A stretch of 64,000 bases of DNA. Origin: Aureibaculum algae (GTDB taxonomy: Bacteria; Bacteroidota; Bacteroidia; Flavobacteriales; Flavobacteriaceae). The notes below the pieces were generated by a model, which did no database searches, was not told the DNA's origin, and was given only the letters and a program-made list of their open reading frames with translations. Below are positions 21,988 through 47,477 of this stretch, piece by piece. The stretch is taken from assembly GCF_006065315.1 (NCBI RefSeq), contig NZ_CP040749.1:3176501-3240500 (forward strand), read 5' to 3'. Position 1 is the stretch's first letter. Every line of letters begins with the position of its first letter. The position numbers and the translations under genes were made by a program.

Positions 21988-21999
21988 TGATAAATATCA
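21988..21999 (+). promoter_or_regulatory. CRP/FNR-type box 1 (usp)
   Basis: TGATAAATATCA, extended palindrome ATGAT-N4-ATCAT. A -7-like TAAATTTA at 22023-22030 begins 29.5 nt from the box centre, and the first usp gene follows. Confidence 0.7.
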
Positions 22000-22055
22000 T
22001 TTTTTTTATAGGTTTTAACTTCTAAATTTACCTTACAATTTTTAAAGTAGATACC

Positions 22056-22913
22056 ATGAAAAATATACTTTACGCTACTGACTATTCAAAGTATTCTGTT
22101 ACCGCGTTACAATATGCATATCAGTTAAGTACAAAAATGAATATCCAATTAAAGGTAATTCATGTGTTTCACTATCCATCCACATTATTAAATATTGTTG
22201 GAGATACTGAACCAGACTTTGGTGTAAACTATTTTGAAAAACACGCCTCCAAATTAGAACAATTTTGTATCGATAATTTAGGCTATGATTTAAAAAATAT
22301 AACTGTTGAAGCTGTTGAAAATAAATCCGTTTTAAACGGAATTATCGAAAAAGCTCAAGAATTAGATTCAACATTTGTAGTTGTTGGTACCAAAGGTAAT
22401 GGTACTATAAAGGATTTTATAATGGGTAATACCACTAAAAATTTGATAGAAAAAAGTTTGTTCCCTATACTATCAATACCTTACCAAAAAAGAATCTCAA
22501 AAATAAAAACGATAGTATATGCTACTGCCTTTGAAGAAGATGACATACATGCTATTTGTAAATTAACTGAAATTGCAGAACCTTTAAAATCAGAAATAAA
22601 AGTAGTACATGCTTCTTTAAAAAATGAATACCCTGGTGAGGTTCAAATGGCATGGTTTAAAGAAATGATTGCCAATAAAATAAAATATGAAAAAATTAAC
22701 TTTGAAGTAATTTCTTCAGATGACGTTTTTAATTCATTGCGATTATATGCTGAAAAAAATGATGCTGATTTAATAGCGATGCTTGATCGTAAGAAAGGTG
22801 GATTTATAAAAAAATTATTAAATAAAGATACCGTATTGTTAATGAATGATTATGGTAAATATCCACTGATTAGTTTTAATGTTAGTAATTGTCTAAAACT
22901 AAATCTTTCTTGA
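22056..22913 (+). CDS. Universal stress protein, two-domain (Usp 1)
   Basis: 285 residues made of two UspA-like domains. The first (about 1-145) has the start KNILYATDYSKYS and the ATP-binding pattern G-2x-G-9x-G-S/T, read as GTKGNGTIKDFIMGNT. The second domain (about 150-285) lacks that pattern. Tandem Usp proteins are soluble cytoplasmic stress factors; in several bacteria they are induced at low oxygen. It is the first of four Usp genes in a row, preceded by a CRP/FNR-type box, which supports oxygen- or energy-dependent control. Confidence 0.88.
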   Translation: MKNILYATDYSKYSVTALQYAYQLSTKMNIQLKVIHVFHYPSTLLNIVGDTEPDFGVNYFEKHASKLEQFCIDNLGYDLKNITVEAVENKSVLNGIIEKAQELDSTFVVVGTKGNGTIKDFIMGNTTKNLIEKSLFPILSIPYQKRISKIKTIVYATAFEEDDIHAICKLTEIAEPLKSEIKVVHASLKNEYPGEVQMAWFKEMIANKIKYEKINFEVISSDDVFNSLRLYAEKNDADLIAMLDRKKGGFIKKLLNKDTVLLMNDYGKYPLISFNVSNCLKLNLS

Positions 22914-22930
22914 TTTAGAAATCAAAAGAC

Positions 22931-22942
22931 TGATTTAGGTCA
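22931..22942 (+). promoter_or_regulatory. CRP/FNR-type box 2 (usp)
   Basis: TGATTTAGGTCA, with TTTATTTG at 22966-22973 starting 29.5 nt from the centre. It drives the second Usp gene separately from the first. Confidence 0.65.
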
Positions 22943-22990
22943 TTTTATTTTAGTCACAATTAATGTTTATTTGAAAAAATAGTAATCATC

Positions 22991-23836: not shown

Positions 23837-23846
23837 TTTAAACAAC

Positions 23847-25710: not shown

Positions 25711-25722
25711 TGATTAATATCA
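25711..25722 (+). promoter_or_regulatory. CRP/FNR-type box 3 (lipoprotein)
   Basis: TGATTAATATCA, with TATTTTTA at 25746-25753 starting 29.5 nt from the centre. It lies 54 nt before the lipoprotein start. Confidence 0.65.
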
Positions 25723-25775
25723 TTTCAGTCATAAAATTATAGTGTTATTTTTAAAAAACTAAATGTAGCACTATT

Positions 25776-28235: not shown

Positions 28236-29021
28236 TTAAACTTCAAAAAATATATCAACAATAAAAACAGCTATAAAGTCTATTACAAAAAGGAGCATAG
28301 AAGTATAAACTACAGCTGAATTAGAAGCTTCGCCAACACCAACAGTTCCTTTTTTACAATAATACCCCTTAAATGTACCGACCAAACCAATGGCAAAACC
28401 AAAGAAAAATGTTTTGATAGTTGCTGGAATAACATCAGAAAATTCTAGTGCATTTGTCACTTTATTAAAATAAAGTAAAAATGATACTTCTCCTTTTAGG
28501 TTCTCTACTATTGCGGAGCCAACTAAAGCAATGGCATCACCAAAAATAATAAGTAAAGGAAGCATAAGTGTAGCAGCTAAAATACGTGTTACCACTAAAT
28601 ACTTAAAGGGATTTGTACCCGAAACCTCCATGGCATCAATTTGTTCTGTCACTCTCATAGAGCCTAGTTCAGCACCAATACCAGAGCCAATTCTTCCTGC
28701 ACAAATTAGTGCAATAATAACAGGTCCTATTTCTCTCACTATAGAAATACTGACCATGGAGGGCATCCAAGATTCAGCTCCAAATTCCATTAAAGTGGGG
28801 CGTGATTGCAGTGTAAAAACCAAGCCTAATATAAATCCCGTTACACCCACCAATAACAACGAACGGTTACCCATATTATAACATTGGCGTAACAATTCTT
28901 TAAATTCAAAAGGTCTCGTGAAGACTTCTTTAAAAAAGCGACCTGCAAAATATGCCAGGTCACCTATTTCTTCAAAAAAAGATTTAAATTTCGTCGCTAA
29001 TTGTGTTGATTTGGATTTCAT
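28236..29021 (-). CDS. MlaE-family ABC permease
   Basis: 261 residues with about five membrane segments and the family core GFILGLVFTLQSRPTLMEFG and EIGPVIIALICAGRIGSGIGAELGSMRVTEQIDAM broken into the same order as in MlaE. It forms the inner-membrane channel for phospholipid or lipid movement between membranes. First gene of the operon. Its promoter -7 element ends only about eight bases before the ATG, so its mRNA may be nearly leaderless. Confidence 0.92.
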   Translation of the reverse strand: MKSKSTQLATKFKSFFEEIGDLAYFAGRFFKEVFTRPFEFKELLRQCYNMGNRSLLLVGVTGFILGLVFTLQSRPTLMEFGAESWMPSMVSISIVREIGPVIIALICAGRIGSGIGAELGSMRVTEQIDAMEVSGTNPFKYLVVTRILAATLMLPLLIIFGDAIALVGSAIVENLKGEVSFLLYFNKVTNALEFSDVIPATIKTFFFGFAIGLVGTFKGYYCKKGTVGVGEASNSAVVYTSMLLFVIDFIAVFIVDIFFEV

Positions 29022-29028: not shown

Positions 29029-29071
29029 CAAATTTACCACTGATATTTATGTAATAAAATGATTTAGATCA
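29029..29071 (-). promoter_or_regulatory. CRP/FNR-type box 4 and promoter (mlaE operon)
   Basis: TGATTTAGATCA at 29060-29071, with TAAATTTG (exact TAnnTTTG) at 29029-29036 on the reverse strand, 29.5 nt from the centre. Confidence 0.75.
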
Positions 29072-29133: not shown

Positions 29134-29835
29134 CTAAAGGATAAGGCTAAATTTTTCTTTTACTTTATTCACCACTTTCTTGACCATCAGTTCTTCTATA
29201 ATTAAAATTTCAGAAATTTCACTCACACTTTGATTTGCAAAAACATACAACTCAATAATGGCTTTACTTCTTGGTGGCATCTTAAAAAATAGGCTTCCTA
29301 ATAATTTTCGTTTTTTAGCAGATTGTAATGTCAAATCTTCTAAATTTAGTTTACTGGTAATTAGTTTTTCTATGGATTGATCTAAGATAATATGTTTAGG
29401 CTTAAAATCATTTTGATGGTAAGAAATATCATCTAATTCCTCATACAAAATAAAATCACCATCGCCATCAGTAGTATACCTTTCATCCATGGTTTGCAAT
29501 TCTTCTTTTAATATTTCACCAATATTGATATTATTTTCAAATTGGTGACCTAATATGGTTATTTCATCAATTTTTTCAACACTTTTTTCAAAAAGCATTC
29601 TTCTTAAATCCTTTTTGGCAATTTTATTATTGAAATTTTCAAATACGTCAAGGTATACATCATCTAAAATATCATTAGGATTAAAAAAATTCTTATCTAT
29701 TACCCCTAAATCCTCCGCAATATTTAGCTTTCTTGCTATAAAATCTTTAAGACTAGGTATAAAGCTTGAAACTTTTATATAAAAATGTTTAAAATTATTC
29801 TCTAATCTTAATTGTTGTAATTCTTTAGTAATCAT
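29134..29835 (-). CDS. Sigma-70-like protein with C-terminal HTH, uncharacterised
   Basis: 233 residues. The N-terminal part (FIARKLNIAEDLGVIDKNFFNPNDILDDVYLDVFENF) has the look of a divergent sigma region 2. The C-terminal 50 residues (SKAIIELYVFANQSVSEISEILIIEELMVKKVVNKVKEKF) fit a sigma region 4 helix-turn-helix. It may be a degenerate sigma-like regulator. No DNA-binding target or anti-sigma partner is visible. No box of the surrounding regulon was found at its promoter. Confidence 0.55.
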   Translation of the reverse strand: MITKELQQLRLENNFKHFYIKVSSFIPSLKDFIARKLNIAEDLGVIDKNFFNPNDILDDVYLDVFENFNNKIAKKDLRRMLFEKSVEKIDEITILGHQFENNINIGEILKEELQTMDERYTTDGDGDFILYEELDDISYHQNDFKPKHIILDQSIEKLITSKLNLEDLTLQSAKKRKLLGSLFFKMPPRSKAIIELYVFANQSVSEISEILIIEELMVKKVVNKVKEKFSLIL

Positions 29836-29906: not shown

Positions 29907-30362
29907 TTAATTTTTTCTTTTCCTTCCTGTCATTTCATTAATTTTAATCTGAAAGACAATGGGTTCCCCATCATCATAAATCTTACTTGAAAACTCACTA
30001 ATAAAATGAAGGTCTTTCAGTTCTTTTTTTCTAATTATATCCTTTATACATATAGAAAAATCATGCAGATAATATTTTGCATCAACACCTGACAATTCCT
30101 TATATTCACCATGTACAAGCACAGATCTCCAATTACTAGGCGATTGAATTTCTGCAACTTCCAATGAAACAAAATTGTTTTTTCGCATAGCCATCGTTTT
30201 TTGACCACCTTCAGTATACCCTATGATACAATTATTCTCTTTACAGTAATAGTAGGTTATAGGTACAACAAATGGCCTATTCTGAAATATATACCCTAGG
30301 AAACCGATATAATTGGAACTGAGTATTTGAATTAACTCTTTATCTTTAACTAGCTGTATCAT
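29907..30362 (-). CDS. Pyridoxamine-5'-phosphate-oxidase-like flavoprotein (NimA-like)
   Basis: 151 residues of the FMN-binding split-barrel fold. The family blocks are present: GYIFQNRPFVVPITYYYCKE, then IGYTEGGQKTMAMRKNNFVSLEVAEI and WRSVLVHGEY. This subgroup reduces flavin- or nitro-type substrates and is often annotated as nitroimidazole-resistance-like; the physiological substrate is unknown. A regulatory box stands 48 nt upstream, so the protein is expected when oxygen is low. Confidence 0.82.
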   Translation of the reverse strand: MIQLVKDKELIQILSSNYIGFLGYIFQNRPFVVPITYYYCKENNCIIGYTEGGQKTMAMRKNNFVSLEVAEIQSPSNWRSVLVHGEYKELSGVDAKYYLHDFSICIKDIIRKKELKDLHFISEFSSKIYDDGEPIVFQIKINEMTGRKRKN

Positions 30363-30378: not shown

Positions 30379-30421
30379 TAAAAATAATAAGAAATTAGCT
30401 GTTTTAAAATGACCAATATCA
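30379..30421 (-). promoter_or_regulatory. CRP/FNR-type box 5 and promoter (NimA-like)
   Basis: TGACCAATATCA at 30410-30421, with TATTTTTA at 30379-30386 on the reverse strand at the standard distance. Confidence 0.65.
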
Positions 30422-30436: not shown

Positions 30437-31351
30437 TTAGTTCGTTTTATTTACATCTACTTCTAGTTTAGGTATTTTTATCAATTCTAATGTCGTAGAG
30501 GCTAACATTACTTTTCCATTAGTCAAATAAATTTCTTTTCTAATTTCATCATTCAATACATCTTTTGTGCCACGGCGTTTCTTATAATCAACAATATATC
30601 TAAGATTGAATTGTATCCAATTATCATTTAAGGTTATCGCTAAAGTTGGATCTACCTCAGCATTTTCTATATAATATTTATTTACAACATCATTCCATTT
30701 AGCCTTTGAGTTTAAGGTATAATCTGATAATACTTTACGAGCTATTTTAATAACAATAAGTTTTGCTAATTCAATGTCTGAACCATATTTAATAGGTAAG
30801 TTAAACTCATCCCAGATAAAGGGGAAATCTTGAGAATAATTATATATGGGGCCTTTAAACACAAAGGCGTTACTCAATTTTACAATTCTACCACTGTAAT
30901 TATCACTACTTACCCATTGGCCAATTTCCATCATGGTGGTATAAATACTATCCACATCAATTACATCGCCTTTAATACCATTAATTTCAATTCTATCTCC
31001 AGGTTTGTACACTTTAACTAAAAAAATATAAACAGATCCGGCCAAGCTTAAAATCAATTCTTGTAATGTAAAAGCAATACCCGCCGTAAAAACACCAATA
31101 GCAATAGTGAAATTTTTCATTGAACCTGAAAAATAGAAAAGGGATAAAAGAATTAATAATATATATCCTAATATTTCAATGCCTTTTTGAGATTTATACC
31201 TTGCACTTGTGTTTGAAATTCTCCTTCTTAAAACTCTCCTCGTCAATTTTATAACGATAATAATAAAAAGCACCCATAATAAGTATTTAACGATTCCCAC
31301 AACAAAAGGATTTTCAGAAATCCAAATTTTAATATCTTCTATTAAATTCAT
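30437..31351 (-). CDS. MscS-family mechanosensitive ion channel
   Basis: 304 residues: three membrane segments (about 18-38, 60-80, 85-110), of which the last, GIAFTLQELILSLAGSVYIFL region, is the pore helix, followed by the MscS beta domain (YKPGDRIEINGIKGDVIDVDSIYTTM). MscS channels release solutes on hypo-osmotic shock. The C-terminal vestibule domain is longer than in minimal MscS. The regulatory box shared with the histidine kinase gene fits this gene's promoter rather than the kinase's. Confidence 0.88.
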   Translation of the reverse strand: MNLIEDIKIWISENPFVVGIVKYLLWVLFIIIVIKLTRRVLRRRISNTSARYKSQKGIEILGYILLILLSLFYFSGSMKNFTIAIGVFTAGIAFTLQELILSLAGSVYIFLVKVYKPGDRIEINGIKGDVIDVDSIYTTMMEIGQWVSSDNYSGRIVKLSNAFVFKGPIYNYSQDFPFIWDEFNLPIKYGSDIELAKLIVIKIARKVLSDYTLNSKAKWNDVVNKYYIENAEVDPTLAITLNDNWIQFNLRYIVDYKKRRGTKDVLNDEIRKEIYLTNGKVMLASTTLELIKIPKLEVDVNKTN

Positions 31352-31380: not shown

Positions 31381-31423
31381 TAAAGTTAATAGATCCTAAA
31401 GCCTTTAAAAATGATACATATCA
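31381..31423 (-). promoter_or_regulatory. CRP/FNR-type box 6 and promoter (mscS)
   Basis: TGATACATATCA at 31412-31423. On the reverse strand TAACTTTA (31381-31388) sits at the standard distance. On the forward strand the equivalent position has no -7 element, so the divergent kinase gene is probably not activated from this box. Confidence 0.65.
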
Positions 31424-31523: not shown

Positions 31524-33404
31524 ATGTTTCAACAAAATCAAGATATATTTAGCATTCTATCTGAAGCAATTTCTGAATGTATTATCATTATTGATAATGA
31601 TCAAAAAATTGTATCAACCAATTCGTCTACCAATAAAGTATTTGGTTATACCTCTGCCGAATTAATAGGAAAATATTTGGAAAAACTAATTCCAAAAAAA
31701 TATCATAAAATTCAAAAAGTACTCTTCAAAAAGTTTGTTAAAAAAGGTGAGAAAAGGCAAATTTCAGATAGTATTGAACTTTATGGCTTACGAAAAAATG
31801 GTGCCATTTTTCCTACTGAAATTGGTTTAAATCCTTTTACGGTTTATGGTAAAACCTATAACATGGTTTTATTGATTGATATTACCGAAAGAAAGGAAAA
31901 TGAAAAAAATTTACTCATAAAAAGTGAAGCTCTGCAGTCAGCAGCTAATGGTATTGTTATAACCGATGCACTACAATATGACAACCCTATCATTTATTGC
32001 AATTCCGCTTTTATTAAACTCACCGGGTATTCAGAATCTGAAATCATAAATAAAAATTGCAGGTTCTTACAAACTGATGATAGAGATCAAGAAAGCATAG
32101 AGCAAATTCGATTGGCTATAAAAAAAGGAATAAGTTGTAGTACAATTCTGCGTAATTATAAAAAAGACGGTACTTTATTTTGGAATGACCTGTCTGTAAC
32201 GCCTATAAAGAATAATGATGGTGTTGTTACTCATTTTATTGGAATCCAAAATGATATTACAAAGCGGATGTATGCTGAGCAAGAACTTAAGCATTGGGCT
32301 TCTATTTTTGATGAATCATTAAATGAAATATTTATATTCGATAAAGTATCATTAAAATTTTTAAATGCTAATAGAGGAGCACAAAAAAATATAGGTTATA
32401 CTCTTGAAGAACTTAAAGAATTGACCCCTTTCGATATAAAACCTGAAATTACCGAAAATGATTTTAGAACATTGATAGCTCCTCTAATTCATAAGGATAA
32501 AGAAAAAATTGAATTTGAAGCCATCCATCAAAGAAAAGATGGCACCACGTACCCTATTGAGGTACACTTACAACTATCTTCATCTGAAGATCATGAATTA
32601 CTCGTTGCGATAATCTTAGATATTACTGAGCGAAAAAATTATACAGAAAAGTTAGAAAATACCGTCGCAAAACGGACCGAACAATTGAAAATTGCCTTGA
32701 CTAAAGAAAAAGAACTAAACGAACTTAAAACAAAGTTTCTGTCTTTAGTATCGCATGAATTTAAAACACCATTAAGTGGCATTTTAACATCAACTATTTT
32801 ACTAGAAAAATACAAGCTCACTGAACAACAAGAAAAAAGAGATAAACACTTAAATATAATTACGAGTAAAGTACATTACCTTAACAATATTCTTAACGAT
32901 TTTTTATCTATTGAACGTTTAGAATTAGGAAAAGTAACTTATAAATTTACTGATTTTAATTTGAGTAAAGTCGTAAACGAAGTGGTTTATAATGCAAATA
33001 TGTTATTAAAAGGCGGACAAAGAATTAATATTTCTCAAAATAGTGATGAATTTAACTTACATCAAGATGAGCGGATTTTAGAATTAATTTTATCTAATTT
33101 AATTTATAATTCCATAAAATATTCACCTGAAAACACAGACATTAATCTTGAAGTTTCAGAATGTGAAAATAATTTAATTTTAAAGGTTATTGATTATGGA
33201 ATAGGAATTCCGATAAATGACCAAAAACACATATTTAATCGTTACTTTAGAGCTGAAAATGTATTGAATAATCATGGTACAGGCATAGGTCTAAATATTA
33301 TAAAAGCACATTTAGAAAATTTAGGTGGAACAATAAACTTCAAAAGTGAAGAAAATAGCGGATCTACATTTATAGTTGAACTTCCAAAGATAATTGAAAA
33401 ATGA
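31524..33404 (+). CDS. PAS-LOV-PAS sensor histidine kinase
   Basis: 626 residues, no membrane segment. PAS 1 spans about 1-120, PAS 2 about 135-247, PAS 3 about 255-375, then a coiled coil and HisKA with phospho-acceptor H411 (LVSHEFKTPLSG) and an HATPase domain (N-box LSNLIYNSIKYSP, G1 DYGIGI, G2 GTGIGL). PAS 2 is a LOV domain: NCRFLQ at 178-183 includes the photoactive C179 that bonds FMN, and the flavin contacts N211, N221 (FWND) and Q242 (IGIQ) are all present. It should therefore bind flavin and respond to blue light or redox state. The stop overlaps the start of the response regulator. Confidence 0.88.
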   Translation: MFQQNQDIFSILSEAISECIIIIDNDQKIVSTNSSTNKVFGYTSAELIGKYLEKLIPKKYHKIQKVLFKKFVKKGEKRQISDSIELYGLRKNGAIFPTEIGLNPFTVYGKTYNMVLLIDITERKENEKNLLIKSEALQSAANGIVITDALQYDNPIIYCNSAFIKLTGYSESEIINKNCRFLQTDDRDQESIEQIRLAIKKGISCSTILRNYKKDGTLFWNDLSVTPIKNNDGVVTHFIGIQNDITKRMYAEQELKHWASIFDESLNEIFIFDKVSLKFLNANRGAQKNIGYTLEELKELTPFDIKPEITENDFRTLIAPLIHKDKEKIEFEAIHQRKDGTTYPIEVHLQLSSSEDHELLVAIILDITERKNYTEKLENTVAKRTEQLKIALTKEKELNELKTKFLSLVSHEFKTPLSGILTSTILLEKYKLTEQQEKRDKHLNIITSKVHYLNNILNDFLSIERLELGKVTYKFTDFNLSKVVNEVVYNANMLLKGGQRINISQNSDEFNLHQDERILELILSNLIYNSIKYSPENTDINLEVSECENNLILKVIDYGIGIPINDQKHIFNRYFRAENVLNNHGTGIGLNIIKAHLENLGGTINFKSEENSGSTFIVELPKIIEK

Positions 33405-34456
33405 AAAAAATTTTATTAATAGAAGATGACGTAGTAGTCAGAGAAAACACAGCAGAACTGTTAGAGTTGTCTAATTATAAGGTTTTTACAGCTGCAGATG
33501 GTAAAATGGGAATTACAAAAGCAATCACAGAATTACCTGATGTAATTATATGTGATATAATGATGCCTGAAATAAATGGTTATGAAGTATTAAATGTACT
33601 TTCTAAAACAATTGCTACACAGCATATTCCTTTTATTTTTTTATCCGCAAAAACTGAATATAGCGATATTCGAAAAGGAATGGATATGGGTGCTGACGAT
33701 TATTTGACCAAACCTTTTAATGAAGCTGAACTTATTAGTGCTATAGAAAGTCGAATTGCCAAAGTAGCACTTCTAAATGAGAATTCAGATTTGAAAAGCT
33801 TAATACAATCATATAATAGTGATGATAATCTAAAAACAATTGATCAGCTTAAAAACTATTTTTCTGATAATGCAGAAGAAGTTACATATAACCTTGATCA
33901 AACTATATATAGAGAAGGAGATCATTCAAATTATATATATTTAATATATAAAGGGGTTGTAAAAACCTCAAAAACTGATGAACAAGGCAAAGAATTAATT
34001 ACCGCATTACACAAAGGGGACGATTTTTTTGGGCTAACTTCTTTATCTCACAATAGGCCTTATAAAGAATCTGCAATAGCTCTCGAAAAAACACAAGTTT
34101 TCAGATTGGTAAAAAATGATTTTAAAGATCTTTTATTAAAAAATCATGCCTTAACATTAGAGTTGTTGGACTATTCTACAGAAAATGTAACCGAAATTAA
34201 AGGTCAATTATTACAAATGGCATACAGTTCTGTTAGAAAAAAAACGGCAAATACGATATTACAGTTTGCTGAAAAAATTAAAAAACATCCAAAAGATGGT
34301 ATTCGAATCTCAAGAAGTGACTTGGCTAGTGTAGCTGGTATTGCCACCGAGACTTTTATAAGAACATTAACACGTTTAAAAAAGGAAGGTATCATTGATA
34401 TTGAAGGAAGAAATATAAAGGTAATTGATATTGACTTATTAAAACAAGTTTATTAA
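33401..34456 (+). CDS. Response regulator with CRP/FNR output domain
   Basis: 351 residues. An N-terminal receiver (phospho-acceptor D52, acidic pocket D9/D10) is fused to a cyclic-nucleotide-type sensor domain (about 150-265) and a CRP/FNR helix-turn-helix (about 275-351). The recognition helix reads ETFIRTLTRL; the Glu and Arg four apart are the residues that contact TGA half-sites in FNR and CRP. There is no N-terminal Cys cluster, so it is not an iron-sulfur FNR; input should come by phosphorylation from the LOV kinase whose gene it overlaps by four bases. Best local candidate for binding the twelve TGAY-N4-RTCA boxes. Confidence 0.9.
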   Translation: MKKILLIEDDVVVRENTAELLELSNYKVFTAADGKMGITKAITELPDVIICDIMMPEINGYEVLNVLSKTIATQHIPFIFLSAKTEYSDIRKGMDMGADDYLTKPFNEAELISAIESRIAKVALLNENSDLKSLIQSYNSDDNLKTIDQLKNYFSDNAEEVTYNLDQTIYREGDHSNYIYLIYKGVVKTSKTDEQGKELITALHKGDDFFGLTSLSHNRPYKESAIALEKTQVFRLVKNDFKDLLLKNHALTLELLDYSTENVTEIKGQLLQMAYSSVRKKTANTILQFAEKIKKHPKDGIRISRSDLASVAGIATETFIRTLTRLKKEGIIDIEGRNIKVIDIDLLKQVY

Positions 34457-34471: not shown

Positions 34472-34483
34472 TGATATATATCA
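34472..34483 (+). promoter_or_regulatory. CRP/FNR-type box 7 (usp)
   Basis: TGATATATATCA, with the weaker -7-like TAATTTAG at 34507-34514 at the standard distance, before Usp 5. Confidence 0.6.
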
Positions 34484-34537
34484 TTGTATAAAATCTATAA
34501 CACGTCTAATTTAGATGTAAATTATAGAACGAATAGA

Positions 34538-35846: not shown

Positions 35847-35956
35847 AATTTAACCTAACATAAATGAACATCCTATTTTTATTTTTTATAACAATTAAAC
35901 TAGAAGCAATAATATTGGAGAAAAAACTTGGAGGTAAAATTTTAGAGTCATTTTTT

Positions 35957-36040: not shown

Positions 36041-36064
36041 GATTGTATCTATTTGTAATTCAAT

Positions 36065-36138
36065 CAAAATTACTAACGCCGGTATTTTCACGAATTGATC
36101 CGGATCATTTTTTATGAAATCCAATTATAATAGTTTTA
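36065..36138. promoter_or_regulatory. CRP/FNR-type box 8, two-way
   Basis: TGATCCGGATCA at 36096-36107. Both directions have a -7 element at 29.5 nt: TAATTTTG on the reverse strand (36065-36072, towards the small ORF) and TAGTTTTA on the forward strand (36131-36138). Confidence 0.6.
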
Positions 36139-36178: not shown

Positions 36179-36190
36179 TGATATATATCA
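36179..36190 (+). promoter_or_regulatory. CRP/FNR-type box 9
   Basis: TGATATATATCA, with TATATTAG at 36214-36221 at the standard distance. The leader to the next sizeable gene is long (about 170 nt) and contains a 19-codon reading frame at 36278-36337 that may or may not be translated. Confidence 0.55.
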
Positions 36191-36398
36191 TTTCAAATTA
36201 GAATCATTATAAGTATATTAGTATTCATGATTCTAAAGCTTATACATTAGGCAATTTTTAAATTTTATTTATTGCAAATGGAAGAAGCTAAAGCATCATC
36301 AAAAAAAATTGATAGAAGTACTATACTAATTCTTTAATTAGAGGCTAACAAATACTTCTGTTTCATTCTAATTTTTATAACACTATAAATAACTTAAA

Positions 36399-36836
36399 AT
36401 GGAAACTAAAATCAAAAAAGATTGGTTGGGCAGAGTTAAAAGCATTGAAGAATTGCATGATGACTCAAAACTTTGGATTTCTGAAGTAAGTTTTATTAAT
36501 GATGAATTACATTTTTTTAATGATTTATTAAGTACCTATTATATTGATATTATTGATTCTGGTTTGTCTGATGAAATCAATAAAATAATAAAAAAAATAA
36601 CTCAAGAAAAAGAATCATATAATGCATTTATGAAATTGATTCAATATCAGGAAAACCTATTATCTAAACTAATTTACACAGGTAGTGTTACCAGCAATCC
36701 AAATTATTTAAAAATGCATCAAGATTTAGAATTTAAAGTTAATGCCTATATTAAAAATTCTAAATTATTAAAAAAACAAATTTTTAGCATTGTAGAAGAT
36801 CAAATGAGAAAGAAAGAGCAAAAAAAATTACTATGA
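36399..36836 (+). CDS. Helical protein of unknown function
   Basis: 145 residues, almost wholly predicted helical and rich in Lys, Leu, Ile and Glu, with no signal peptide and no cysteines. It looks like a cytoplasmic coiled-coil or helical-bundle protein. No family recognised. The two boxes upstream place it in the low-oxygen/stress regulon; a terminator shared with the convergent Usp 6 follows. Confidence 0.7.
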   Translation: METKIKKDWLGRVKSIEELHDDSKLWISEVSFINDELHFFNDLLSTYYIDIIDSGLSDEINKIIKKITQEKESYNAFMKLIQYQENLLSKLIYTGSVTSNPNYLKMHQDLEFKVNAYIKNSKLLKKQIFSIVEDQMRKKEQKKLL

Positions 36837-36984: not shown

Positions 36985-37809
36985 TTACAAAAACAATAAA
37001 GGTATTTTACTAGCATACGTTATCTCTGTCATACTCGCCTTTGTAAATATTCTTTTAAAAAAAGATTCGACATGTATAATTTTAGCAACTAAATGCACTT
37101 CTTTTGTTGCTATAATATGCTCAACGGCATTTTCAATTGACTTATTTTGGTCCGTATAAAAGTTCAGTATGGTGTCTTTAAAAAATGAATTTAAGGTCTC
37201 TTTTTGAAGGTTATATTTATCTTGTTCATTCTGATTAACCATTGTTAATACATTCAGATGTGAATTAAATTTTGATATTATACCAAGTAATGGTTTTACA
37301 ATATTCTTTTCTAAACTTATTTCTGTTTCATTGATAAATAAAACTTGCGATGGTTTACAGAACTTGTGCTTTTTAGGAATAACCAAAATAGGTAAATCAA
37401 CTTTTTCAATAACCTGAATTGTATTAGAACCAAAAACAGCTTCTTTTATACTTGAAGCTCCATTTGTTCCCATCACAATCATATCCACATGTTCAATTTC
37501 TACTAATTGTTTTATAGCACTGACAAAGCTATCATAATCACAAATTCCTTCAAAAGTATAGTCTTCATTAGCGTATTCTTTCTTTAAATCATTTACTAAA
37601 ATCTCTAATGCTTTTTTAGGATTTTTTATGACAGAATCGTAAATAGATTTTTTGGGAGATGCAATTAAATCACTTGTAATATATTTGGAAACTTTCTGCA
37701 CATTGAGCACATAAAACGTAATGGTGTCTCCACTAAAAAACTGCATCGCATATGTTATAGCATTACTAGCATTCTTTGAAAAATCTGTTAATAATAGTAT
37801 CCGTTTCAT
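36985..37809 (-). CDS. Universal stress protein, two-domain (Usp 6)
   Basis: 274 residues from the ATG at 37807-37809. A longer frame adds 21 residues but would run over the -7 element and does not match the family start KRILLLTDFSKNA. Nucleotide-binding pattern GTNGASSIKEAVFGSNT; the second domain (QVLFINETE) is degenerate. Divergent from hemN and sharing one regulatory box with it. Confidence 0.87.
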   Translation of the reverse strand: MKRILLLTDFSKNASNAITYAMQFFSGDTITFYVLNVQKVSKYITSDLIASPKKSIYDSVIKNPKKALEILVNDLKKEYANEDYTFEGICDYDSFVSAIKQLVEIEHVDMIVMGTNGASSIKEAVFGSNTIQVIEKVDLPILVIPKKHKFCKPSQVLFINETEISLEKNIVKPLLGIISKFNSHLNVLTMVNQNEQDKYNLQKETLNSFFKDTILNFYTDQNKSIENAVEHIIATKEVHLVAKIIHVESFFKRIFTKASMTEITYASKIPLLFL

Positions 37810-37828
37810 AATTATATTTTTTCTCTTA

Positions 37829-37902
37829 TAAAAATACAAATTACAACGTATTGTAAATATGACATTTATCATTGTATCTCCATCATAACAACATTAATTT
37901 TG
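37829..37902. promoter_or_regulatory. CRP/FNR-type box 10, two-way (hemN / usp 6)
   Basis: TGACATTTATCA at 37860-37871. Forward -7 element TAATTTTG (37895-37902) for hemN is exact; reverse TATTTTTA (37829-37836) for Usp 6. Both lie 29.5 nt from the centre. Confidence 0.75.
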
Positions 37903-37926: not shown

Positions 37927-39294
37927 ATGCCAAATTCAACATTAATTCAAAAGTATAATGTACCTGGTCCAAGATATACTAGTTACCCTACAGTTCCTTA
38001 TTGGAATGAAGATAGCATAGATGAAAATAGCTGGAAGCAATCCATTAAAAAGTCTTTTGATGAAAGCAATTCTTCAAAGGGAATTAGTTTATATCTACAC
38101 CTTCCTTTTTGTGAAAGTTTGTGTACTTTTTGTGCTTGTCATAAATACATTACGAAGCGACATGAATTAGAAACACCCTATATTGAAACGTTGTTAGCTG
38201 AGTGGCAACTTTACTTGCAACAATTTGATAAAAAACCGTTGTTAAAAGAGTTACATTTAGGTGGTGGGACTCCTACTTTTTTTGATGTGGAAAATTTAGA
38301 ACTGTTGATAAAAACCATTCTAAAAACAGTTGATTTACATAGAGATTTTGAATTTAGTTTTGAAGGTCATCCTAACAATACTACCAAAGAACATTTACAA
38401 ACCTTATATAATTTAGGTTTTACTCGAGTGAGTTATGGTGTACAAGATTATTCAGAAAAAATTCAAAAAGCGATCAATAGAAAGCAGTCTTTTGAAGATG
38501 TAAAAAATGTAACGCAATGGGCTAGAGATATTGGCTACACTTCTATTAGCCACGACCTTATTTTCGGATTACCGTTTCAGACCATTAACGACATTATAGA
38601 TACCATAAAAAAAACGAAAGAATTAAAACCTGAACGTATTTCGTTTTATAGTTATGCTCATGTACCATGGATTAAAGGTGTTGGTCAAAGAGGTTTTAAA
38701 GATTCAGATATACCTAATGGTGATGAAAAACGAAAACTATATGAAATGGGTAAACATATGTTACTGAACCTAGGATATATTGAAACGGGCATGGATCATT
38801 TTGCATTACCAACAGATTCCCTCTCTAGAGCTTTTAAAGATGCTAATATGCACAGGAACTTTATGGGATACACTACAAATCCAACACAATTAATGATAGG
38901 GTTGGGCATGTCTGCCATTAGCGATTCTTGGTATAGTTTTTCACAAAATGAGAAAACGTTAAAAGCATATCAAGATCAAATTGAAAAAGGAGTACTTCCT
39001 CTTTTAAAGGGTCATTTATTAACCGAAGAAGATTTAATAATCAGAAAACACATACTAAACATTATGTGTCATTTTAAAACTTCTTGGAAAAATGACAATA
39101 TGAAATTTAAGGAGCTTTCAGAAACATTAGGCCGTTTAAAGGAATTAGAAAAAGATGGCTTAGTTGTAATTTTAGATGATGAACTCATTATTCCTGAAAA
39201 TGCAAGGGCATTTGTAAGAAATATATGTATGGCATTTGATTTACGAATGGTTCGTAACAAGCCAAATACCAAATTATTTTCATTGACAGTATGA
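37927..39294 (+). CDS. hemN: Oxygen-independent coproporphyrinogen III oxidase
   Basis: 455 residues, radical-SAM enzyme. The iron-sulfur cluster cysteines C62, C66 and C69 form CX3CX2C (FCESLCTFC), as in HemN; the N-terminal YNVPGPRYTSYPT block is also diagnostic. HemN converts coproporphyrinogen III to protoporphyrinogen IX without oxygen and is needed for haem synthesis under anoxia. FNR-type control of hemN is well established in other bacteria, so its box is a useful internal control for the regulon reading. Confidence 0.95.
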   Translation: MPNSTLIQKYNVPGPRYTSYPTVPYWNEDSIDENSWKQSIKKSFDESNSSKGISLYLHLPFCESLCTFCACHKYITKRHELETPYIETLLAEWQLYLQQFDKKPLLKELHLGGGTPTFFDVENLELLIKTILKTVDLHRDFEFSFEGHPNNTTKEHLQTLYNLGFTRVSYGVQDYSEKIQKAINRKQSFEDVKNVTQWARDIGYTSISHDLIFGLPFQTINDIIDTIKKTKELKPERISFYSYAHVPWIKGVGQRGFKDSDIPNGDEKRKLYEMGKHMLLNLGYIETGMDHFALPTDSLSRAFKDANMHRNFMGYTTNPTQLMIGLGMSAISDSWYSFSQNEKTLKAYQDQIEKGVLPLLKGHLLTEEDLIIRKHILNIMCHFKTSWKNDNMKFKELSETLGRLKELEKDGLVVILDDELIIPENARAFVRNICMAFDLRMVRNKPNTKLFSLTV

Positions 39295-39395: not shown

Positions 39396-39824
39396 TTAAA
39401 AAAGGTGTGTATGTCCCTCTTTTATTTCCTTAGAGAAACTTGCAATTGTTTTGTTTGTGAGTTCCCCTACTAATTTATTTCTTAAGGGTGATACTAAATG
39501 ATGAATTGGACAAGGGTTTTCACTATCACAAACAGGTAAACCTAAAGAACATCCTTGAAATTTTTCTAACCCATCTATGGCAGCTACTATAGATATCATT
39601 GAATTTTGTCTATCAGCATCCGTAAGGTAAAAACCTCCGTTCCTACCCTTTCTTGAAGAAATAATATTTCTTTTGGTAAGTTCTTGCAAGGTTTTAGCTA
39701 AAAAAGGAGCTGGTATATCAATTATTTCAGCAATTGATTTTGGATTATATTTTTTTTCATCATCAGAATTTAATGATAAAAACAGTACTGCTCTAATGGC
39801 GTAAGTACTAGATTTTGAAAGCAT
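39396..39824 (-). CDS. Rrf2-family transcriptional regulator (NsrR/IscR-like)
   Basis: 142 residues with an N-terminal winged helix (YAIRAVLFLSLNS ... FLAKTLQELTKRNII) and three conserved cysteines C92, C99 and C105 in the pattern expected for a [2Fe-2S] or [4Fe-4S] cluster. Rrf2 members of this kind sense nitric oxide (NsrR) or cluster status (IscR). Its position, divergent from the fasciclin-nos transcript with a shared regulatory box, favours a nitrogen-oxide sensing role, which is inference. Confidence 0.87.
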   Translation of the reverse strand: MLSKSSTYAIRAVLFLSLNSDDEKKYNPKSIAEIIDIPAPFLAKTLQELTKRNIISSRKGRNGGFYLTDADRQNSMISIVAAIDGLEKFQGCSLGLPVCDSENPCPIHHLVSPLRNKLVGELTNKTIASFSKEIKEGHTHLF

Positions 39825-39847: not shown

Positions 39848-39921
39848 CAAAGTAAAAAGATAATAATATCTTTTTATATGACAAATGTCATATTTTCATT
39901 TAAGCACTACTTATATATTTG
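39848..39921. promoter_or_regulatory. CRP/FNR-type box 11, two-way (nos cluster / rrf2)
   Basis: TGACAAATGTCA at 39879-39890. Forward -7 element TATATTTG (39914-39921), exact, towards the fasciclin-cytochrome-nosZ genes; reverse TTACTTTG (39848-39855), one mismatch, towards the Rrf2 gene. Confidence 0.75.
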
Positions 39922-41066: not shown

Positions 41067-43034
41067 ATGAAATCAATACTTAAAATAATGACGCTGTTAT
41101 TTTCGGCTTCTGTTTTACTGAGCAGTTGTGGTAATAATAATGGTAAATCTTCGGGTAACAATAGTGCTTTAAATAGCAGTAACGCCGAAAAAGTGTATGT
41201 TGCACCAGGTGAATATGACGAGTTTTATGCGTTTATGTCTGGAGGTTATAGTGGTAACCTTACTGTTTATGGTTTACCTTCTGGTAGAATGTTTAAAGAG
41301 ATTCCTGTTTTTTCTCAGTTTCCAACCACAGGTTATGGTTACTCTGAAGAAACTAAACCAATGCTAAATACTTCATTTGGTATGGTACCTTGGGATGATT
41401 CTCACCACCCTGATATTTCTCAAACCAATGGTGTTTTAGATGGTAGATGGGTATTTATAAATGGTAACAATACACCACGTATTGCTAGAATTAGTCTTAA
41501 AACTTTTGAAACTGAAGAAATTATTGAAGTACCTAATAGTGCAGGTAACCATAGTTCTTCATTTATAACTGAAAACACAGAATATGTAGTTGCAGGTACA
41601 CGTTTTTCTGTTCCTGTTCCTCAAGCTGATTTACCTATTAATGAATATAAAGGTAAATTTAAAGGAGCTTTATCTTTTATTAGTGTAGATAAAGAAACGG
41701 GTAGAATGGGTATTAAATTTCAAATATTAATGCCAGGTTTTAACTATGATCTTTCTCACCCTGGTAGAGATAAGTCTCATGGTTGGTTCTTCTTTACTAC
41801 TTACAATACAGAAGAAGCGAACTCATTATTAGAAGTAAATGCTTCTCAAAATGACAAAGATTTCATTGCTGCGATCAATTGGAAAAAAATTGAAGAATAT
41901 GTAAATAATGGTGGTGGTACTAAAATGCCGGCAAATTATGCACACAACGTTTATGATGAGCATACACATACGGCTACTTCTACTATGGAAAAAGAAGTAT
42001 TGACTGTAAACCCTGCAGATATACCTGGAGCTATTTATTTCTTACCTACTCCAAAATCACCTCATGGTTGTGATGTAACTCCTTCAGGAGAATACATTAT
42101 CGGTAATGGTAAATTATCAGCAGACTTAACAGTACATTCATTTGCAAAAATGTTAGATGCTATTGAAAACAAAAAATTTGACGGTGATGCTTATGGAATT
42201 CCAATCTTAAAATATGAAGATATTTTAGCTGGTGTTGTAAAATCTGGTGGTTTAGGCCCATTACATACAGAATTTGATGATAAAGGAAATGCGTATACTA
42301 CATTCTTTATTTCTTCTGAAGTAGTAAAATGGAAAATAGGTACTTGGGAAGTAATTGATAGAAAACCTACTTATTATTCAGTAGGTCACTTAATGATTCC
42401 TGGTGGAAATTCTAGAAAACCTTTCGGAAAATACGTGGTTGCCATGAATAAAATTACGAAGGACCGTTATTTACCAACTGGACCTGAGTTAGAGCATTCA
42501 GCACAACTATATGATATTTCAGGTGAAAAAATGGAGTTAATTTATGATTTTCCAACACATGGTGAACCTCATTATGCTGCAGGTATTCCAGCTGATCTAA
42601 TCAAAGGTAATTCACAAAAAATCTACAGATTAGATGAGAACAAACATCCATATGCCATAACTTCTCCAGATCAAGCCAAAGTGACTAGAAATGGTAAAGA
42701 AGTACATATATCTATGGCAATGATTAGATCTCATTTTACACCAGATAATATTGAAGGTGTTAAAGTTGGTGATAAAGTATATTTCCATATCACAAACCAC
42801 GAACAAGATTTTGATGTACCTCATGGATTTGCTATGATCGGTGCAAACAATTCTGAATTGCTAATTATGCCAGGACAAACAAAAACCCTTACATGGGAAC
42901 CTAAACAAGTAGGTGTTTGGCCTTTCTATTGTACAGATTTCTGTAGTGCATTGCATCAAGAAATGCAGGGATATGTCAGAGTATCACCAGCAAATTCAGA
43001 TATAGAGCTATCATGGTCTTTAGACGGTGAATAA
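41067..43034 (+). CDS. nosZ: Nitrous oxide reductase, clade II (Sec/lipoprotein type)
   Basis: 655 residues. The export signal ends in a lipobox at Cys21 and lacks a twin-arginine motif, which marks the clade II enzyme found in Bacteroidetes. CuZ histidines start with H113-H114 (WDDSHHPD) in the seven-bladed propeller. The C-terminal cupredoxin has the CuA ligands C622, C626, H630 and M633 (CTDFCSALHQEM). It reduces N2O to N2 in the periplasm. A hairpin terminator follows, separating it from the assembly genes. No nir or nor gene is in the window, so the cell may be a non-denitrifying N2O consumer. Confidence 0.97.
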   Translation: MKSILKIMTLLFSASVLLSSCGNNNGKSSGNNSALNSSNAEKVYVAPGEYDEFYAFMSGGYSGNLTVYGLPSGRMFKEIPVFSQFPTTGYGYSEETKPMLNTSFGMVPWDDSHHPDISQTNGVLDGRWVFINGNNTPRIARISLKTFETEEIIEVPNSAGNHSSSFITENTEYVVAGTRFSVPVPQADLPINEYKGKFKGALSFISVDKETGRMGIKFQILMPGFNYDLSHPGRDKSHGWFFFTTYNTEEANSLLEVNASQNDKDFIAAINWKKIEEYVNNGGGTKMPANYAHNVYDEHTHTATSTMEKEVLTVNPADIPGAIYFLPTPKSPHGCDVTPSGEYIIGNGKLSADLTVHSFAKMLDAIENKKFDGDAYGIPILKYEDILAGVVKSGGLGPLHTEFDDKGNAYTTFFISSEVVKWKIGTWEVIDRKPTYYSVGHLMIPGGNSRKPFGKYVVAMNKITKDRYLPTGPELEHSAQLYDISGEKMELIYDFPTHGEPHYAAGIPADLIKGNSQKIYRLDENKHPYAITSPDQAKVTRNGKEVHISMAMIRSHFTPDNIEGVKVGDKVYFHITNHEQDFDVPHGFAMIGANNSELLIMPGQTKTLTWEPKQVGVWPFYCTDFCSALHQEMQGYVRVSPANSDIELSWSLDGE

Positions 43035-44655: not shown

Positions 44656-44659
44656 TAAA

Positions 44660-45895
44660 ATGCTAAAGAAAACACTTCCCCTTTTATTATTCCTTTTTAT
44701 AATTTCAAATAGTTATACTCAATCTATAGAGGTATGTGCTACTTGCGATGTTAACTCACTTACAGATGCTATCGCTAAATCTAAACCACATGATAAAATA
44801 ACGATACAAAAGGGTACGTACTTAGAAAGCAATGTTATAATTGACAAGCCTTTACAAATAATTGGTGAGGGTAATCCAATAATTGATGGAGAAAAAAAAG
44901 GATATGTACTTATTGTAAAATCTGACAGTGTTTCTGTTACCGGACTGGTAATTAAAAACCCAGGGAAAAGTTATACCAAAGATTATGCAGCCGTTTATAT
45001 TTCTCAGAGTAACCATTTCACTTTTGAAAACAATACCTTAGAGAGTGTCTTTTTTGGTTTTCTAATTGAAAAATCTCATCATGGAAAAATCGTTAAAAAT
45101 CATGTTTCAAGTCAAGCGATAGATCAATCAGCCTCAGGTAATGGCATTCATTTATGGAATTGTTCAAATATGCTTATTGATGGAAATAAAGCACATAATT
45201 TAAGAGATGGTATTTATTTAGAATTTACCAAAGAAACTAAGGTTACCAATAACCAAAGCTATGACAATATGCGTTATGGTTTACATTTTATGTTTTCAAA
45301 CCATAACGAATACCATAACAATACATTTACGAATAATGGTGCCGGCGTTGCTGTTATGTTTTCCAAATTTATTAAAATGACTGGCAACACATTTACCAAA
45401 AACTGGGGAACTGCATCTTACGGATTACTTTTAAAAGAAATTTATGATGCCGAAATTGAAAACAATACTTTTCAAGAAAACACTATTGGTATTAACGTTG
45501 AAGGTTCTACCAGAATAAATTATCTCAAAAATAATTTTATAAGCAACGGTTGGTCTGTAAAAATTGCTGGTGCTTGTTATGCCAATATATTTAAGGAAAA
45601 TAATTTTTTAAACAATTCTTTTGACATTTCATACAACAGCAATATGAACGATAATAAATTTGACAGTAATTATTGGAGCTCATATACGGGGTACGATTTA
45701 GATAAAAATGGCATAGGTGACATTCCTTATCGTCCTGTAAAGCTATTTTCTTATATCGTAAATAAAACCCCAGAAACAATTATATTATTGCGAAGTTTAT
45801 TTGTAGATATTATCAATTTTTCAGAAAAAGTGTCACCAGTGTTCACACCTGATGAATTGGTAGACAGTACACCATTAATGACTCCTATTAAATGA
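44660..45895 (+). CDS. nosD: NosD, periplasmic beta-helix NosZ assembly protein
   Basis: 411 residues with a signal peptide (about 1-20), then parallel right-handed beta-helix repeats rich in Asn (for example NHFTFENNTLESVFFGF, SNMLIDGNKAHNLRDGIYLEFTK), the CASH/NosD pattern. NosD receives copper or sulfur species through NosFY and passes them to NosZ for CuZ assembly. Its stop overlaps the nosF start by four bases (ATGA). Confidence 0.93.
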   Translation: MLKKTLPLLLFLFIISNSYTQSIEVCATCDVNSLTDAIAKSKPHDKITIQKGTYLESNVIIDKPLQIIGEGNPIIDGEKKGYVLIVKSDSVSVTGLVIKNPGKSYTKDYAAVYISQSNHFTFENNTLESVFFGFLIEKSHHGKIVKNHVSSQAIDQSASGNGIHLWNCSNMLIDGNKAHNLRDGIYLEFTKETKVTNNQSYDNMRYGLHFMFSNHNEYHNNTFTNNGAGVAVMFSKFIKMTGNTFTKNWGTASYGLLLKEIYDAEIENNTFQENTIGINVEGSTRINYLKNNFISNGWSVKIAGACYANIFKENNFLNNSFDISYNSNMNDNKFDSNYWSSYTGYDLDKNGIGDIPYRPVKLFSYIVNKTPETIILLRSLFVDIINFSEKVSPVFTPDELVDSTPLMTPIK

Positions 45896-46611
45896 TAGAA
45901 ATAAAAAATTTATATAAAAAATTTGGAAAGGTTGAAGTCTTAAAAGGGCTAGACTTGACCATTAACCCCAATACTTCTGAAGGTGGCATTTTTGCAGTTT
46001 TAGGTCCTAACGGCTCCGGTAAAACAACATTAATTAAAAGTATTTTAGGGATGGTTATTCCCAATAAAGGGGAAATTGAAATTCAAGGAAAAAGTGTCTT
46101 AAAAAAACATCAATATAGGAATAACATCAATTATTTACCACAAATTGCCAATTTTCCAAGCAATTTAAGTGTAAACGAATTGATTAAAATGGTTAAAAAC
46201 CTAAGACCTAAACCTGCGGCTGATCAAGAATTTATTGATTTGTTTCGTTTAGAACCTTTTCTAGACAAAAAACTAGGCAACTTATCAGGTGGTACGAAGC
46301 AAAAAGTAAACATCCTACTGACTTTTATGTTTGATAGTGAACTAATTATCTTAGATGAGCCCACAACTGGTTTAGACCCAATTTCTTTACTCAATCTTAA
46401 AAAAATAATCTTGGCTGAAAAAGAAAAGGGTAAAATGATATTAATTACTTCTCACATTATGAGTTTTGTAGAAGAAATGGCTGATGAAATTGTGTTTCTA
46501 TTAGATGGTAAAATCTATTTTAAAGGAACATTAGCTGCCATAAAAGAGCAGACCAAACAAACCGATTTAGAACATGCTATTGCAGCAATTTTAACAAAAG
46601 AAAATGTTTAA
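45892..46611 (+). CDS. nosF: NosF, ABC transporter ATP-binding protein
   Basis: 239 residues: Walker A GPNGSGKTT (about 43-51), signature LSGGTKQKV, Walker B LIILDEPTTGLDP and the switch His in ITSHIM. It energises the NosFY transporter that works with NosD. Overlaps nosY by eight bases. Confidence 0.93.
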   Translation: MIEIKNLYKKFGKVEVLKGLDLTINPNTSEGGIFAVLGPNGSGKTTLIKSILGMVIPNKGEIEIQGKSVLKKHQYRNNINYLPQIANFPSNLSVNELIKMVKNLRPKPAADQEFIDLFRLEPFLDKKLGNLSGGTKQKVNILLTFMFDSELIILDEPTTGLDPISLLNLKKIILAEKEKGKMILITSHIMSFVEEMADEIVFLLDGKIYFKGTLAAIKEQTKQTDLEHAIAAILTKENV

Positions 46612-47386
46612 AATATTAAAATATAGTTTTTACGATTTAATGCGTAGCAGTTGGAGTTACGTATATTTTTTATTCTATTTAGGCTTAGGTTCTGTATTAC
46701 TATTTTTAAATAATGACGTGTCAAAAGCGGTTATTACTTTAATGAATATTATTGTGGTACTTACACCATTAATAGGAACCATTTTTGGGGTTATGTATTA
46801 TTATAACTCCCGTGAGTTTACGGAGTTATTGTTAGCCCAACCCTTAAAAAGATCAACCATTTTTATTGGTCAATATTTAGGAGTGGCCATTTCACTCTCT
46901 TTAAGTTTAGTGATTGGTTTAGGTATCCCATTTTTAGCATATGGACTACTACAATCATCAGAAATTTTTAATTTTTTATCTCTTATAGTGGTTGGTGCAT
47001 TTTTGACTTTTATCTTTGTAGCCTTGGCATTTAATATTGCTCTTTCTAACGAAAATAAAATTAAAGGCTTTGGTTATGCTATTTTAATGTGGTTATTTTT
47101 AGCTGTAATTTATGATGGGCTATTTTTAATTTCTCTAGTAATGCTTCAAGAATATCCATTAGATAAATTCTCTTTAGTAGCAACCATGTTTAACCCTATA
47201 GATTTATCGAGAATTTTAATACTTTTAAAATTAGACATCTCTGCCCTACTCGGCTATACAGGTGCTGTTTTTCAAAAATTCTTCGGTACTAATTTCGGCA
47301 TGGTAATTTCTTTTAGTGTACTTTCTCTTTGGGTTGTTTTTCCCATATTAAGAATCCTATTTAAATCAAAAAGAAAAGATTTTTAA
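46604..47386 (+). CDS. nosY: NosY, ABC transporter permease
   Basis: 260 residues with six membrane segments and the family blocks MYYYNSREFTELLLAQPLKRSTIF and FNPIDLSRILILLKLD. With NosF it forms the transporter that supplies the CuZ site. Last gene of the nos series; no hairpin terminator was seen after it. Confidence 0.92.
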   Translation: MFKILKYSFYDLMRSSWSYVYFLFYLGLGSVLLFLNNDVSKAVITLMNIIVVLTPLIGTIFGVMYYYNSREFTELLLAQPLKRSTIFIGQYLGVAISLSLSLVIGLGIPFLAYGLLQSSEIFNFLSLIVVGAFLTFIFVALAFNIALSNENKIKGFGYAILMWLFLAVIYDGLFLISLVMLQEYPLDKFSLVATMFNPIDLSRILILLKLDISALLGYTGAVFQKFFGTNFGMVISFSVLSLWVVFPILRILFKSKRKDF

Positions 47387-47434
47387 TTTTTAAATCTTAA
47401 TTGAATGTTAAATCAATCATAATTCATAATTACA

Positions 47435-47477
47435 TGATAATCATCATGTTTTTGCTTATTTGTTAATCCTATTTTTG
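47435..47477 (+). promoter_or_regulatory. CRP/FNR-type box 12 and promoter
   Basis: TGATAATCATCA at 47435-47446 inside ATGAT-N4-ATCAT, with an exact TATTTTTG -7 element at 47470-47477. It precedes the 602-residue protein. Confidence 0.75.

Follow-up and report, generated by a model that had tools for sequence, protein, structure and literature searches.

A receiver-CRP fusion as best candidate regulator of fixed-spacing, class II-type promoters in Aureibaculum algae and related Flavobacteriaceae

Escherichia coli FNR recognises the site TTGAT-N4-ATCAA, in which TGA is read by a glutamate and an arginine at E-x-x-x-R spacing, and the output domain of DosR is of the NarL/LuxR type. In the FixL-FixJ-FixK system of Alphaproteobacteria, two-component control feeds a CRP/FNR-family activator that lacks a cysteine cluster and whose targets include hemN, cbb3-type oxidase and nos genes (PMC4999443, in the sections available). 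DosR/OsdR-type regulons comprise usp, redox and stress genes and are induced by hypoxia (PMC5069765, likewise in part), and a -33/-7 promoter motif of Bacteroides is given in an accessible section of PMC10620806. Here we describe a set of palindromic sites placed at a fixed distance from -7 elements in a stretch of Aureibaculum algae DNA, together with a receiver-CRP fusion protein encoded among them that is the best candidate for their regulator. The stretch, referred to as the window, covers 64,000 nucleotides (nt) of the single 5.17 Mb contig (C1:3176501-3240500).

The preliminary description of this DNA had listed twelve TGAY-N4-RTCA palindromes in front of genes, and all twelve were recovered by scanning the window. 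Exact matches to TGAYNNNNRTCA number 17, against a mean of 4.4 and a maximum of 13 in 100 shuffles; the remaining five (4976, 31592, 32078, 61694 and 62816) lie inside open reading frames (ORFs). Each arm was scored at the six fixed positions of the TAnnTTTG element at a gap of 23 nt, which equals 29.5 nt from the palindrome centre. Fifteen of the 24 arms of the listed palindromes score 5 or 6 of 6, five of them being perfect, and at any other offset from 5 to 59 at most two arms reach 5 or 6. Every listed palindrome has at least one good arm (5 or 6 of 6), as expected from the fixed 29.5-nt spacing proposed earlier, and none of the ten arms of the five in-gene palindromes attains 5 of 6. When a final A was also allowed, the counts became 16 of 24 listed arms versus one of ten in-gene arms (32078, minus strand). 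When mismatches were permitted in both parts, the window yielded 19 pairs at gap 23, 16 of which are arms of the listed palindromes, and 1 to 8 pairs at each of gaps 19-22 and 24-27. An ATG is found 7-36 nt past the -7 element for 11 of the 12 palindromes, with the reservation that the minus-side ATG at 36096 opens an ORF of merely 27 residues; for the twelfth, 36179, the nearest following ATG is 177 nt off.

The strict pattern TGAYNNNNRTCA-N23-TANNTTTR was then counted in the whole genome. At gap 23 it occurs 52 times and once backwards, while gaps 24-36 together give 23 matches, an average of 1.8 per spacing, and 25 backwards. Across 199 genomes from 198 genera, own genome included, 2708 strict sites were found versus 100 backwards. 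The motif-spacing pair on which the preliminary description had rested its proposal is thus not equally frequent at other spacings or backwards. These controls refute an origin by chance, in which AT-rich intergenic DNA would often yield palindromes next to TAnnTTTG: the GC content (31%) and the palindromes expected from shuffling lend it some plausibility, but we give it practically no credence. The 52 strict sites are clustered, with 11 in the present stretch, 12 at 2,153,393-2,186,515, 7 at 2,402,978-2,416,319 and 3 at 4,088,720-4,102,653; 19 are scattered.

In order to compare relatives, the best 80 of 179 loci were analysed, with up to 10 kb on either side of the fusion gene (1.48 Mb). 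They contain 347 strict sites at gap 23, in 78 of the 80 loci, and 0-9 at each other gap except gap 45, where 20 were counted. A class I position at gap 45 was considered and rejected: 15 of the 20 are tandem palindromes 22 base pairs (bp) apart, so that the peak does not define a separate promoter class. These tandems, which keep a spacing of exactly 22 bp and carry their -7 element at gap 23 (L088:12384, L089:12405 and 13006, L091:12510, L102:12381 and others), belong to Lutibacter in 12 of the 15 cases. At locus L088 the tandem is followed by near-identical repeats and then by an S30AE-like gene; no ORF of more than 50 residues lies directly behind this tandem promoter, and in L088, L091, L102 and the window tRNAs were the sole Rfam matches.

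Site centres in the relatives' loci are intergenic in 335 of 347 cases, although this DNA is 84% coding. An ATG lies within 300 nt of 314 sites (quartiles 21, 25 and 33 nt past the element) and of the other 33 it does not; ATCA is followed by T in 95%. The activator had been proposed to replace the -33 element, and indeed TTG stands directly behind the palindrome in only 25 of 347 sites and TTTG near there in 12. The gap of 23 is held in the window, the genome and the relatives' loci and would place the palindrome centre near -41.5, as in class II promoters of the CRP type, so that the CRP/FNR-type geometry put forward earlier holds well beyond the window. Together, these data strongly support the prediction that the sites represent class II-type promoters of the CRP/FNR family that are conserved in Flavobacteriaceae. 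They could alternatively be repressor operators, at which a CRP-type protein would block promoters. The geometry alone is compatible with this, but the mostly missing -33 element and the exactly held -7 distance fit contact with RNA polymerase better than simple blocking, and we regard repression as very improbable. An element in both directions had also been reported for three palindromes. It is present on both sides at 36096 and 37860 and is weaker at 39879, where the second arm, TTACTTTG, scores 5 of 6; the two-way layout is real at two to three window sites. Two-way activation as a design rule was rejected, a strict element being found on both sides of 11 of the 336 element-bearing palindromes of relatives.

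The best regulator candidate, absent from the preliminary description, is encoded inside its own island. The gene 33401..34456 (plus strand) specifies a protein of 351 residues with receiver, cNMP-binding and HTH_Crp_2 domains in Pfam (PF00072, 96.9 bits; PF00027, 70.4 bits for a cut-off of 27.5; PF13545, 47.4 bits for a cut-off of 27), and overlaps the end of a kinase gene by 4 nt. The cNMP-binding fold and Crp-type helix-turn-helix place it in the CRP/FNR superfamily; the receiver Asp, the acid pocket and the kinase next door place it among response regulators. Residues D9, D10, D52, K104, E317 and R321 are present in all 81 aligned relatives (window included). It is not an FNR proper: the sole cysteine is Cys51, located in the receiver, and there is hence no FNR-type cysteine cluster. 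Nor is it a FixK equivalog in NCBIfam (71.6 bits for a cut-off of 300), the CRP model scoring just below (67.4 of 266 bits), and its cNMP-binding plus HTH_Crp_2 output separates it from DosR/DevR. The protein is 95-96% identical to the regulators of Aureibaculum luteum and A. flavum. A structure model (mean predicted local distance difference test, pLDDT, 73.7; predicted template modelling score, pTM, 0.42) served as a rough check of domain order. Sites are denser near the fusion, with 347 in 1.48 Mb of neighbourhoods versus 52 in the 5.17 Mb genome.

The overlapping gene (31524..33404, plus strand) encodes a histidine kinase of 626 residues with PAS, LOV, PAS, HisKA and HATPase domains in Pfam. 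Residues ~135-257 match LOV photoreceptors of the PDB at E ~1e-34, including the NCRFLQ cysteine, and the motifs NCRFLQ, RNYKKDG, FWN and GIQND all appear in the alignment to solved LOV domains, so that the photoactive cysteine and flavin-contact residues expected of a LOV photoreceptor kinase are in place. The YtvA-family model gave E 3.3e-53 but, with 180.7 bits, fell short of the curated 250, and none of the curated LOV-kinase models reached its cut-off on this kinase. A kinase adjoins the fusion in 79 of the 80 relatives' loci; once four cut-short kinases were left out, 15 of the remaining 75 had a LOV domain and 60 did not. In a typical LOV-less kinase, L115, the first PAS domain finds FixL as its top PDB match, ahead of other haem-PAS sensors. 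The His and Arg aligned with FixL, which we take to be the haem residues, occur together in 38 of the 60 kinases without LOV and in 3 of the 16 with LOV, the window kinase being counted among the latter. In the window kinase Gln and Ile stand at these positions, and it does not classify as a FixL-type haem-PAS sensor. Two evolutionary scenarios were tried and rejected. A coupling of LOV gain to loss of the FixL-type Arg could be followed in only three independent pairs on well supported branches, with a median p of 1, and loses significance when descent is taken into account. A single LOV origin disagrees with the regulator tree, on which the LOV label needs six changes, four of them forced, versus 14.9 when shuffled; one of the six depends on the truncated kinase of L164.

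A profile search of the genome gave nine HTH_Crp_2 matches, six of them over the cut-off: the fusion at 33401, a second fusion (L002), an FNR-like protein without receiver (L001) and three others (L004-L006), whose recognition helices differ as judged by eye. L001 comprises 228 residues (C1:3267520-3268203, 27 kb past the window end) and begins with MSKCQQC; an E-x-x-x-R recognition helix is common to it and both fusions. One could propose that L001 alone activates the promoters according to oxygen and that the fusion binds something else. The 199 genomes were sorted by a best E-value of 1e-60 for the fusion class (no genome lies between 4.6e-38 and 6.0e-76) and 1e-55 for the FNR-like class (none between 1.5e-44 and 1.9e-59); the fusion class mixes both types, since in G001, G025, G119, G146 and G180 the best match is 42-45% identical, like L002. 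Strict sites average 26.3 in genomes with both proteins (n=49), 15.8 with the fusion only (n=37, range 6-37), 11.0 with the FNR-like protein only (n=68, range 1-36) and 2.0 with neither (n=45, median 1, range 0-29). Fusion-only and FNR-like-only genomes each differ from those with neither at a Mann-Whitney p <1e-11, a value that overstates the strength because the genomes are related and many of the neither type are small; the neither-type genomes G177 (5.0 Mb), G039 (3.4 Mb) and G073 (3.3 Mb) have no site at all. These counts suggest that both the fusion and the FNR-like protein probably read the site. Activation by L001 alone is favoured by the number of sites in FNR-like-only genomes and their resemblance to those of fusion-only genomes, and by hemN and nos being FnrN/FixK-type targets in the available part of PMC4999443, but every one of the 37 fusion-only genomes carries at least six sites, 78 of 80 loci have sites clustered near the fusion gene, and genomes with both regulators have more sites than those with either alone. 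We consider it unlikely.

We hold it probable, from sequence comparisons, that these are Bacteroidota-type, activator-dependent class II promoters driven mainly by the fusion, through Asp52 and the adjoining kinase, with the FNR-like protein sharing sites. Several observations weigh against this proposal. The sites of FNR-like-only genomes indicate that some protein other than the fusion reads them as well, and the FNR-like protein could be responsible for the strict sites beside nos and hemN. An attempt to separate FNR from fusion sites by their sequence was abandoned, the two sets being nearly alike (among the sites listed, 34 of G059, G044 and G072 versus 35 of G143 and G027; four listed sites of the FNR-like-only genome G017 were left out). 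The co-occurrence counts ignore descent and genome size, and four of the 45 genomes with neither regulator have at least five sites (G048, 29; G147, 16; G138, 10; G051, 5). G138 is 99% complete and the other three are below 90%; in these four the reader may be a more distantly related CRP-type protein. Finally, only an arm of 3 of 6 faces the kinase-regulator operon, which hence shows no clear autoregulation.

The nature of the targets was evaluated by clustering 314 downstream proteins of the relatives' loci and scanning one member of each of ten clusters. Usp-like proteins are the commonest (134 of 314, in 75 of 80 loci), followed by two unnamed families (27 and 20), S30AE ribosome-hibernation type proteins (19), MlaE (13), a cytochrome oxidase with FixO domain (10), sigma-70 region 4-like proteins (7), CDP-alcohol phosphatidyltransferases (6), DnaJ (6) and radical SAM, HemN-like proteins (2). 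The kinase itself lies downstream of a site in merely 2 of 314. The preliminary description had presented hemN and nos as classic FNR-family targets; in relatives Usp genes and not respiration genes predominate, but an FNR-like protein is a probable reader of these sites too, so that hemN and nos may nonetheless be under FNR control.

What the DNA itself shows is the sites with their spacing, intergenic position and gene starts, the protein domains, conservation, and co-occurrence with the regulators. From these we infer where transcription starts, the phosphotransfer to the fusion, its binding to DNA, activation and an input by light in the following way. A signal, light via LOV here and oxygen via a haem-type PAS in many relatives, would set the phosphorylation of Asp52 of the fusion by the adjoining PAS-LOV-PAS kinase. 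A dimer of the CRP module would bind TGAY-N4-RTCA, centred 29.5 nt before the -7 element and near -42, and would recruit RNA polymerase to promoters having a TAnnTTTG -7 but a poor -33 element. The FNR-like protein L001 would add its own input at shared sites, hemN and nos being shared or mainly its own. The output would be a survival programme of Usp, lipid transport and MscS proteins, extended in relatives by a ribosome-hibernation-type factor and a cbb3-type oxidase. More tentatively, and with somewhat greater doubt than belief, one may see here a general stress/dormancy system of Flavobacteriaceae, in which fusions run Usp-rich islands and a LOV blue-light domain added in Aureibaculum and several other lineages lets light gate a survival/low-oxygen programme that includes N2O reduction.

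Within the window, the sites were assigned to genes as follows. On the plus strand, the palindromes with -7 elements at 21988..22030 (TAAATTTA) and 22931..22973 (TTTATTTG) precede Usp genes starting at 22056 and 22991, with the ATG 25 and 17 nt on respectively, and that at 25711..25753 (TATTTTTA) precedes the gene at 25776 (209 residues; weak phosphatidyltransferase-like match under cut-off). On the minus strand, 29029..29071 (TAAATTTG) faces an MlaE-type permease gene (28236-29021) with lipid-transport genes behind it, 30379..30421 (TATTTTTA) a pyridoxamine-phosphate-oxidase-like gene (29907-30362) previously called NimA-like, and 31381..31423 (TAACTTTA) an MscS-type gene (30437-31351). The list of controlled genes given earlier thus stands in part: the good arm at 31412 serves the MscS gene, its plus arm towards the kinase being weak (TAATCGTT, 3 of 6), and 36096 and 36179 have no plus-side gene start within 170 nt. 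The plus-strand site 34472..34514 (TAATTTAG) belongs to the Usp ORF 34484-35380, whose likely true ATG is 23 nt past the element. The minus arm of palindrome 36096 (36065..36107, TAATTTTG) faces the 27-residue ORF, which is gene-remnant-like, and its plus arm (36096..36138, TAGTTTTA) is 260 nt from the next gene start (36399); the plus-strand site 36179..36221 (TATATTAG) lies 177 nt before the same gene, whose 145-residue product has no family match over cut-off. The minus arm of palindrome 37860 (37829..37871, TATTTTTA) is directed at the Usp ORF 36985-37872, with a likely true start 19 nt past the element, and the plus arm (37860..37902, TAATTTTG) at hemN (37927-39294). At 39879 the minus arm (39848..39890) faces an Rrf2-family gene (39396-39824) and the plus arm (39879..39921, TATATTTG) a fasciclin gene (39919), followed by cytochrome c, nosZ and other nos genes up to 47386. 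NosZ (41067-43034, plus strand) is of the Sec-dependent type (TIGR04246, 950 bits for a cut-off of 625). Behind the nos genes, the plus-strand site 47435..47477 (TATTTTTG) precedes the gene 47514-49322, whose 602-residue product has no Pfam or NCBIfam match over cut-off.

The first start codons of the Usp ORFs 34484-35380 (plus) and 36985-37872 (minus) overlap or abut the palindrome; these ORFs, listed from TTG 34484 and from 37872, probably start further in. The 27-residue ORF, located in 35700-36070 (minus), begins MKNLIVLVLCFF, like the start of a 204-residue site-bearing protein in L086, and is probably a decayed gene. Small proteins of ~135-156 residues, alike by eye, recur in the islands (36399-36836, plus; G000:C1:2153586, 2182357, 2411269 and 2416987); the three scanned (36399, 2153586 and 2411269) have no Pfam match over cut-off. 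Related proteins with 29% identity, one per island, are encoded at 29134-29835 (minus) and G000:C1:2183724-2184497 (minus). The former resembles sigma factors weakly, at 28.5 bits for a cut-off of 42.9, and a relative in L091 passes the cut-off for sigma-70 region 4 (27.9 of 25.7).

The second, paralogous receiver-CRP fusion, L002 (2,187,492-2,188,562), adjoins an 801-residue kinase without LOV motif and is surrounded by BON, ferritin, YtxH, aldehyde dehydrogenase, ferric-reductase-like and MscS genes. The two further site clusters contain SpoIIAA-like, YtxH, HSP20, LigD primase-polymerase, erythromycin-esterase-like and AhpC/TSA genes. Second-island sites read TGAYCTAGGTCA, and a GGTCA ending is found in 9 of 12 of them versus 1 of 11 strict sites of the window island (Fisher p 0.003, tested post hoc). 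This bias suggests that the specificity of L002 may differ.

With so rigid a promoter signature, regulons can be recognised from sequence, and the candidate regulator is named and deletable. A working LOV input would couple light to flavobacterial survival and N2O-reduction genes and provide a natural counterpart of an engineered LOV-FixL kinase. In titles and abstracts of the open-access literature, which leaves most subscription journals outside its scope, we recognised no work on the fusion regulator or its motif, and the single search aimed at a general stress regulator of these bacteria found none described; the available part of PMC5399024, on a Riemerella two-component system, describes no CRP output. 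Receiver-CRP fusions may already be listed in earlier work.

Compared with described systems, the sites resemble an FNR class II regulon in their TGA half-site core, their centre near -42 and their hemN/nos targets, but T and not A follows ATCA in 95% and the main candidate has no FNR-type cysteines. LOV domains upstream of a stress programme are known from YtvA of Bacillus and from alphaproteobacterial LOV kinases (PMC6798134; abstracts of PMC4438053 and PMC5964349), whereas in our reading the output would be a CRP-type activator, with neither partner-switching nor a stress sigma factor taking part. The engineered LOV-FixL kinase YF1 likewise puts a LOV sensor on a FixL-type kinase (PMC6798134); the window kinase is natural, with the LOV domain inserted between two PAS domains and no sensor replaced. 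As with DosR/DevR and OsdR of Actinobacteria, a response regulator is found among many usp genes (PMC5069765, in part), but the output is of the CRP type and the binding motif is different. FixL-FixJ-FixK comes close in its two-component control of a cysteine-cluster-free activator, in its targets (PMC4999443, as far as available) and in the first PAS of L115, with His and Arg aligned to FixL. It differs in that receiver and CRP module are here in one protein, so that the FixJ step is skipped, in the Gln/Ile and LOV domain of the window kinase, and in the predominance of Usp targets. Despite these resemblances the system lacks a feature that defines each of FixL-FixJ-FixK and DosR/OsdR. By analogy, it resembles a FixL-FixJ-FixK cascade condensed into two proteins, to which a LOV domain has been joined in the window kinase.

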